Positions 56,201 through 59,200 of a stretch of 64,000 nucleotides of DNA are shown piece after piece. The DNA comes from Lepisosteus oculatus (Eukaryota; Chordata; Actinopteri; Semionotiformes; Lepisosteidae), in the NCBI RefSeq assembly GCF_040954835.1, contig NC_090706.1:30389148-30453147 (forward strand). Direction: 5' to 3'. Within the stretch, counting starts at the first letter, position 1. The number at the start of each line of letters is the position of its first letter. The translations under genes were made by a program, and so were the position numbers. The notes below the pieces were generated by a model. That model made no database searches, had not been told where the DNA came from, and was given only the letters and a program-made list of their open reading frames with translations.

Positions 56201-59200
56201 AATAAAACGAAAGCAGATTCTTAATCAGTTGAGATAACCTTCACTAGCATATACAGAGTTTGAGATCCAGCTCTCAGAAATGACTTTCAGTAATATTTTG
56301 TTTTATTTTGCAGCTCCCAAGCCACTACCTCCAACACCAGAGCTACAAGTGAGTTTTTTTTTTTTTTTTTCCCCCAAAGAGGACATATAAGTACATATAC
56401 TCTCCCCCCCTTGAATTTTAAGAAATGGTTGAAATACATTAGTAGTAACAGAAATGCAGTAAATGACTGCATCTGCAGAGAAAGTGAATGCACCGTGTTT
56501 TTAGAAGATATGTAATGTTAGCTGCTTTTTGCTGAAAACCAGGCGGTTCATTTTTATCAATATGAAGAACAACATACAGAGAGTGTGATTTTTTGAAGCC
56601 ATAAATAAAAGGTATTTAAATTCCGATTATATTGCAGTCTAGCAGGCTAACATTTGAAATCTTTATTGTGGTACAGTATACTGTCTTTTATAATAATAAT
56701 AAACTTTATTTTATATAGCGCCTTGCAACTCTTACTCTCATGCCTTTAGCTAGAAGCTGTAATATGACAACATTGCACTTTGCCTCTGGACTTTCGTGTC
56801 TTTCAACATCTTCTTAAAAATTTCTGAGACACATTTTCAAACATACATTTTCAAAGTTAGTTGAAGTTGGTCTGAATGATTTTTTCAGTGAAGACTTTTG
56901 AGTCTAACTGTGAACTGTGTGTGGTGAGAGTCACCGTGAGAGAGATTACTGCTGTAATCGTATGACCACAGTATAAGTGGCACTAAGGTGTTAGTGAGAA
57001 CTATAAAAACTATATAAAACCAAAGAACTCTTGACCACTGCTTCTGTTAGAGACCTGTTTTATTTTCAGGATGCGTGCATTATATATATTTACTTTAAGA
57101 AGCCAGACAATGACTAGACAAGACTTATGGGTAGATTATCCTCTTATCCTTATTATCCTCTTGGTAGAGAATTTTTCTGTTTTTGTATATATTTATTTTT
57201 ATAGACACGATTTAAAATAATGCAGTCTGCAGTCTTTGTAGCCGAAACCTTCCTTCACTGTGAGTGACGTGATTCCAATATATAAGATCAGATCACTTTA
57301 TTGGCCATATACAATTTCTTGCATTAGGAATTTGTCTTTTCGCATACCCCAGCTTGCTCTCCATGAGACACACAGACAGGGGGAGAGAAGCTTTATTGGC
57401 AGAGCGCAGGGTCAGCCATTTATTTGAAATGGCAACCTTCCAGCCACAGGTGCAGATCCTTAGCCACAGTGCCACTGCTCCGCCCTTATATGGAAGAGAT
57501 TCCCTTATATAATTTCCTCTCTCTTTTTCCCCAGAGGTGCTTCTCTGATCCTGGGGAGCTTGTCGTGGTCGCCGTCCACGACTTCTCACCAGCAAGAGAG
57601 CAAGATCTTCCCCTGTACAGGAATGAGGAATATATTGTCATAGACCAGTCAGACCCATACTGGTGGATTGTTCAAGACACAAAAGGGTAAATGACACATC
57701 ACACCCTTGAAAGTAGGTCATTGCTGAAAGCTGATTTATTCAGTGACTTAGGTGTTTGCCATGCTAGCCAGCCACTGGTATTGTATGATCAATGTTAAAT
57801 TCTCTCAAAATATTTCATTTTGTGTTTTGAGGGCTCTGATAACTATAATATTGAAAGCCTAAAACTTCATATCTCAAAAGGATTTTGTATCATTCTTGGC
57901 CCCTGAGTTTAGCTGATCATGAATATTTCAAACGCCTGTTGAACTTTGTCACTTTAATGGTAAGGTAATTTTTTTTTTCACTTCCCCAGTGACCAAGGTT
58001 ATATTCCAAGCAGCTACGTCATTGTGAAGTCACCGGAAGGCATAGAACATCATGAGTAAGTTCAGCATTCTATTCATTCTACAATTTTAATTAATTTTAA
58101 AGTACTTTGTTAGAATTTTTTCCCTTGACAAAATTTCCCATCTCATAAAAAGTATTATTGCATGCAAATATGGTTATCACAAAAAACTCAAAATATACCA
58201 GGTTGTGAGTTTTGTATGTGTCACTCCTTTTCATTGATTTATATACAGTGAATACAATATATGCGTGTTTGTGAATGGAGTTTCATGTTTGTGCCCGTTT
58301 GGTTTTAGAATAACCCTAAACCAAGGCTTGGTTTTCTGTTATAGATGGTACAACAAGGATATAACCAGAACAAGAGCTGAGCAACTGCTCTTCAAAGAGG
58401 TACAGCCATTCGAATAGAAAAAAATGTTTCTCTGAGATTTGCTTTAATTCTTAGATGTATGAACGGGACCATTTCTGCCTGCTGCACAATAAACTCCAAC
58501 TCTTACATGCGCTGCAATCTTGCTTCTTGACATTACGATACCACAGATCCAACAGGTCTTGTAAGCTTTCAAGCAGATGCACATTAAACCAGGACAGCAC
58601 TTCATTCTGCAGAGGTGAAAGCCACATTTGCAGGATGTGCAGTTGCAAGAAACTTAGTTTTCTACATTCAGGCTTTCAAGCCACACTTCTGGTTGGGGAT
58701 TTCCTGTCTGCAGCCTGTAGTGTTTTTTCTTCAGAACCTGCACGGCAAAGGTCTATAACATTGTGAACGTTTCATAAATGAGATACAGTACATCTCCCTT
58801 GTTCCCCAAATCCAAAAATACAAATTGCTCTTCCACTCTGAAGATAGATTTAGTTTGCTGTTGCAGTGGTACTCCAAGTAACACACAGTGGCCAAATACA
58901 AAGAGCATTGGGTTTATTTGACTAATAAGGTGAAACTGCAGTGCCTTTTGATTTAAAGCCGTTTTACATGTTATTAGAATCAAATAAAACTCAAAACATG
59001 AGTACGTTTGTAGCATGTACTTTCCTTTTCCCACCCGAATCAGTTTAATTTCCACCAACACAGTGCCGATGAATAAAAGTGTTGTTTTCTGTCTATACAT
59101 CGGTTTTCGCTAAGGTATTATTCTGCTTAGTCCGTGTTGTGACTTATGTATATTGAGAGGCCTTGAACATAAACAGGAGTTTAGCATTAGAATTGACTAA

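Follow-up and report, generated by a model that had tools for sequence, protein, structure and literature searches.

An ITK gene of Lepisosteus oculatus with histidine at the SH3 autophosphorylation position and leucine at the linker tryptophan position

Studies of the Tec-family kinases ITK and BTK have described a tyrosine in the SH3 domain (ITK Y180, BTK Y223) and a tryptophan in the SH2-kinase linker (ITK W356, BTK W395). The tyrosine is an autophosphorylation site (PMC3116522) and sits in the SH3 ligand groove; in general, SH3 tyrosine phosphorylation lowers ligand binding according to a survey (PMC3352900). The weight given to this site is conflicting, as phosphorylation of BTK Y223 was reported to be without apparent influence on catalysis (PMC4384635), whereas Y180F impairs Itk (PMC3116522) and Y223A makes BTK autoactivation about sixfold faster (PMC4384635). 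In BTK, the SH3 residues Y223, W251, and Y268 hold P385 and T387 of the linker (PMC8260988). The linker tryptophan has been called “absolutely required” in Btk, on the basis of a Trp-to-Ala change (PMC4807093), and “invariant” in work on Src- and Tec-family enzymes, which states that mutation of Itk Trp356 inactivates the kinase; in active Lck, the helix-C residue K293, five residues past Glu288, stacks on this tryptophan (PMC5727165). Here we describe an ITK gene in a stretch of 64,000 nucleotides from Lepisosteus oculatus (assembly GCF_040954835.1, contig NC_090706.1, positions 30,389,148 to 30,453,147, forward strand), hereafter the window, in which the SH3 tyrosine is replaced by histidine and the linker tryptophan by leucine. 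With about even confidence, we propose that this is a working, intact ITK in which control through SH3, linker, and helix C has been reset in the lineage and the SH3 phospho-switch is no longer used.

The gene model, whose exon borders were set manually, guided by homology and by splice signals (Table 1), comprises 473 codons without a stop in 13 exons, with all 12 of the 12 introns bounded by GT-AG. In the spliced protein, PH (2.7e-18), the BTK zinc motif (4.7e-15), SH3_1, SH2, and the tyrosine kinase domain are all above Pfam cut-offs, and they follow the order PH, BTK zinc motif, proline-rich segment (KPLPPTP), SH3, SH2, and kinase, the last ended by the window end; this is the architecture of the Tec family. 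The kinase domain is visible to position 64000 only, with HRD, DFG, and the activation-loop Tyr511 lying past the window end. As far as the window shows, the gene is intact, and the zinc motif, the proline-rich motif, the catalytic Lys/Glu pair, and the hydrophobic-stack Trp/Tyr are retained. Among ITK, BTK, TEC, and TXK, the gene is best identified as ITK by its SH3 and kinase matches, its Phe gatekeeper, and its neighbour, rather than by a tree: the SH3 exon is closest in the PDB to the ITK SH3 domain 2lmj (E 3.7e-10) and the closest solved kinase domains are those of ITK, while for the whole protein full-length BTK (8gmb) comes first and full-length ITK is absent among the 60 PDB matches listed. 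A frame matching MED7 adjoins the gene on the minus strand (45582-46322), and MED7 is the neighbour of ITK in mammals as well.

The SH3 domain carries the first of the two substitutions. The initial annotation of this DNA had read CAC and TTC codons in an SH3 stretch AVHDF, and both are present and in frame, each being one base removed from TAC/TAT. Its claim that the autophosphorylation tyrosine is lost was borne out, as the residue aligned with ITK Y180 and BTK Y223 is His and phosphorylation there is therefore impossible. Its description of an altered, Tec-wide ALYDY motif stands for the first tyrosine and fails for the family, since the TEC chain 1gl5 reads AMYDF; because TEC also has Phe at the Y182 position, the second Tyr-to-Phe change is ordinary, and it was rejected as a remarkable feature. 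AVHDF was the sole match to A[LMVIK][YFH]D[YF] in a six-frame scan of 46.5-64 kb, in which no other ALYDY-like stretch was found, although one interrupted by an intron would escape such a scan; an alternative exon bearing ALYDY, as had been entertained, was thus not encountered. A comparison of the SH3 exon with viral contigs matched 34 stretches and returned 0 relatives by tblastn, and chance resemblance is no issue, as the change concerns a single residue within a clear relative of ITK. The splice sites of SH3 exon a are good (acceptor ctttttccccag, donor AAAAGG/gtaaat), and the open frame speaks against a pseudogene, as the initial annotation had held. Its view that the flanking exon is well conserved was too strong, with identity to human ITK at 49% in SH3 vs. 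76% in PH-TH and 73% in the kinase portion.

The remaining groove residues that were examined (the tryptophan W205, the proline P219, the second tyrosine Y222, and the acidic D186 of the RT loop) are kept, as predicted for a canonical polyproline-binding SH3, and the PLPPTP ligand motif reported earlier is likewise present. Y180H thus likely removes the SH3 phospho-switch and not the ligand groove, and ligand binding is probably kept despite the histidine because the SH3 domain of BIN1/amphiphysin-2 naturally carries His here. Tyrosines also turn over beyond Y180: the SH3 gains two, R193Y and H207Y in human numbering (57616-57618 and 57658-57660), while elsewhere Y237 and Y336 are replaced by His and Y353 by Ala. 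A dispersed repeat, SINE-like by eye, lies at 57282-57475 and ends about 60 bases ahead of the acceptor of SH3 exon a; incomplete copies, 78-91% identical, lie around 16.5-16.8, 18.8-19.1, and 25.3-25.6 kb. This repeat could affect inclusion of the exon, the skipping of which would shift the frame because the exon is 152 bases long.

The second substitution lies in the SH2-kinase linker, where the window ITK has Leu at the position of the Tec-family tryptophan, its TTG codon being one base off the TGG of Trp. This tryptophan is a conserved residue of the published Tec members and not a feature by which the family is named. The six-frame scan of 46.5-64 kb gave 0 matches to two linker-Trp patterns, and those alternative donors and acceptors near 61655 and 63100 that were tried, by eye, lose the kinase frame. 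The linker itself reads APRPAGF in the window vs. APVTAGL in human ITK, and helix C has Ala412, five residues past the Glu, at a position that is Met in both human ITK and BTK (M411A). By analogy with Lck, the M411A position may be the contact that stacks on the linker tryptophan, in which case the tryptophan and its helix-C partner would have changed together. The initial annotation had proposed that SH3 regulation is lost or rewired; loss of the phosphosite stands, but it had missed the Trp-to-Leu change and the alterations near it in linker and helix C, which matter more for regulation than the phosphosite does.

These observations allow a model of how such a kinase might be controlled. The SH3 domain would still bind polyproline, with His serving much as it does in BIN1, and phosphorylation of residue 180 could no longer free or redirect it. 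Y180H alone could loosen the SH3 clamp on the linker, and this loosening could be offset by the linker changes, a form of compensation in which the clamp would be held by an extra proline (T348P) and a phenylalanine (L351F). The design of the BTK mutant 4P1F (A384P/S386P/T387P/A388P/L390F), made for firmer autoinhibition and in which autophosphorylation goes down and melting temperature goes up (PMC10945472), includes changes at the same positions. The regulatory spine may have exchanged its tryptophan cap for a smaller, re-packed contact, and activation may rely on engagement of ligand or PIP3, or on membrane recruitment, together with loop phosphorylation and without an SH3 phospho-switch, such that kinase output is perhaps lower or differently tuned. 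It is a doubtful but conceivable elaboration that an ITK lacking both the SH3 phospho-switch and the linker tryptophan, with its contacts re-packed, is a naturally clamped, differently capped Tec kinase, either activated independently of both features or acting mainly as a scaffold in a vertebrate T-cell pathway; a kinase-weak ITK is conceivable because Itk is reported to act with Vav1 and actin independently of its kinase activity (PMC3116522).

A reset regulatory core in a working ITK is supported by the open frame, the GT-AG sites, the Pfam domains, and the MED7 frame alongside, and by the distribution of changes. Human ITK and BTK served as reference sequences, with a numbering that agrees with the printed W208, L351, and W356, and the residues scored were those identical in the two (n = 244). 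The window protein keeps 203 of the 244, and changes fall on 15 of 38 such residues in SH3 plus linker vs. 26 of 206 elsewhere (p = 0.0002). Several points weigh against this reading, however. The region bounds and the pooling of SH3 with the linker were chosen after the alignment was seen. In a control on the human branch, the corresponding counts were 6 of 29 vs. 21 of 201 (p = 0.12), the direct contrast between the branches was not significant (p = 0.29), and neither was the relative count over the whole protein (41 vs. 27 changes, p = 0.11). The concentration in SH3 plus linker is thus visible, but as the branch contrast is not significant it may be the ordinary looseness of these regions and not specific to this lineage. 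The effect of 4P1F is that of five changes jointly, of which the window has two, and L390F alone leaves BTK activity unchanged, with Phe occurring there in other TEC kinases (PMC10945472). Finally, the published inactivating change in Btk is Trp to Ala, not Leu (PMC4807093).

The strongest of the other explanations, although unlikely in our estimate, is tolerated drift of little consequence, in which His binds polyproline, the phosphosite is dispensable, and Leu still supports the spine. Drift would fit the histidine of BIN1 at the same SH3 position, an overall rate that is not significantly raised, and the rarity of ALYD(Y/F), carried by no more than 12-15% of human SH3 domains (PMC3352900). 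It accords poorly with the impairment of Itk by Y180F, with the inactivation of Itk by mutation of Trp356, and with the joint alteration of the tryptophan and its presumed helix partner. Improbable, but next in line, is relaxed constraint, by which an ITK at an early stage of decay, or a member of a duplicate pair in a polyploid fish, would be losing kinase activity with its frame still open. Of the residues common to human ITK and BTK, 1 of 7 Trp and 5 of 21 Tyr are lost, which would suit such decay, as would altered helix-C residues that are otherwise conserved; the uninterrupted 473 codons and 12 GT-AG introns, the Pfam recognition of PH, zinc motif, and SH2, and the retained catalytic Lys/Glu, gatekeeper, and Cys speak against it. 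A kinase-weak scaffold, in which loss of the tryptophan largely inactivates the enzyme and the SH2, SH3, and PH domains do the work, overlaps both relaxed constraint and the reset working kinase and appears slightly less probable still: it draws on the inactivation of Btk and Itk by linker tryptophan mutation (PMC4807093, PMC5727165) and on the roles with Vav1 and actin noted above, and it meets the objections that the catalytic residues within the window are kept, that the change is to Leu and not Ala, and that neighbouring positions are altered too. An error of sequencing or assembly at one or more key codons is highly improbable, since, although each lies one base from expectation (TAC to CAC, TAC to TTC, and TGG to TTG), several separate substitutions fall at functionally linked sites in coding exons without a frameshift.

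Table 1. Positions of the ITK gene, its exons and key codons, and a further gene in the window
Feature	Positions	Strand	Basis or remark
ITK gene, ATG to window end, 13 exons	50129..64000	+	Splice-site/homology model; Pfam
Proline-rich exon	56314..56348	+	Gene model
SH3 exon a	57535..57686	+	GT-AG borders; PDB ITK SH3 match
CAC, His177 = human ITK Y180 / BTK Y223	57577..57579	+	SH3 autophosphorylation site, first ligand pocket
TTC, Phe179 = human ITK Y182; Phe in TEC too	57583..57585	+	Alignment
SH3 exon b, continuing into SH2	57990..58055	+	Gene model
Exon with SH2 end and SH2-kinase linker	61581..61655	+	Gene model
CCA, Pro347 = human ITK T348 / BTK T387	61637..61639	+	Alignment
TTT, Phe350 = human ITK L351 / BTK L390 (hydrophobic stack)	61646..61648	+	Alignment
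Kinase exon 1	63100..63277	+	Lysine K392 of VAIK and glutamate E407 of helix C retained; I404K (human numbering)
TTG, Leu355 = human ITK W356 / BTK W395 (linker Trp)	63105..63107	+	Alignment
Kinase exon 2, ended by window end	63815..64000	+	F436 gatekeeper and C443 kept
tRNA-Ser (TGA) gene	43082-43165	+	ARAGORN

Elsewhere in the window, open stretches on the minus strand (26330-38060) resemble a RING/Lon-domain gene, presumably of the LONRF type. In the open-access literature searched, no report of a natural ITK with His180 or Leu356 was found, nor was a fish or evolutionary alignment of ITK. A natural vertebrate ITK without the linker tryptophan and the SH3 tyrosine would be a natural experiment on which elements of the switch are essential, and also on whether an ITK of low kinase activity suffices for T cells.

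Set beside the known systems, the window protein resembles human ITK in having PH, BTK zinc motif, KPLPPTP, SH3, SH2, and kinase in the same order, and differs from it by Y180H, Y182F, T348P, L351F, W356L, I404K, and M411A and by two-residue insertions, one ahead of the SH2 NNP motif (60207-60230, GSNGENNP) and one ahead of VAIK (63198-63203, NDNLKVAIK). In comparison with the autoinhibited SH3-SH2-kinase unit of BTK (4xi2, 8gmb), it keeps the equivalents of linker P385, of the stack residues W421 and Y461, and of SH3 W251 and Y268; unlike BTK, it has His for Y223 and Leu for W395. BIN1/amphiphysin-2, which is unrelated to ITK and is not a kinase, shares with it a His at the first Tyr of the ALYDY motif (QAQHDY, in solved structures). 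The equivalents of T387P and L390F of the engineered BTK 4P1F (PMC10945472) occur naturally in the window ITK, whereas the equivalents of A384, S386, and A388 are Ala, Arg, and Ala rather than Pro.
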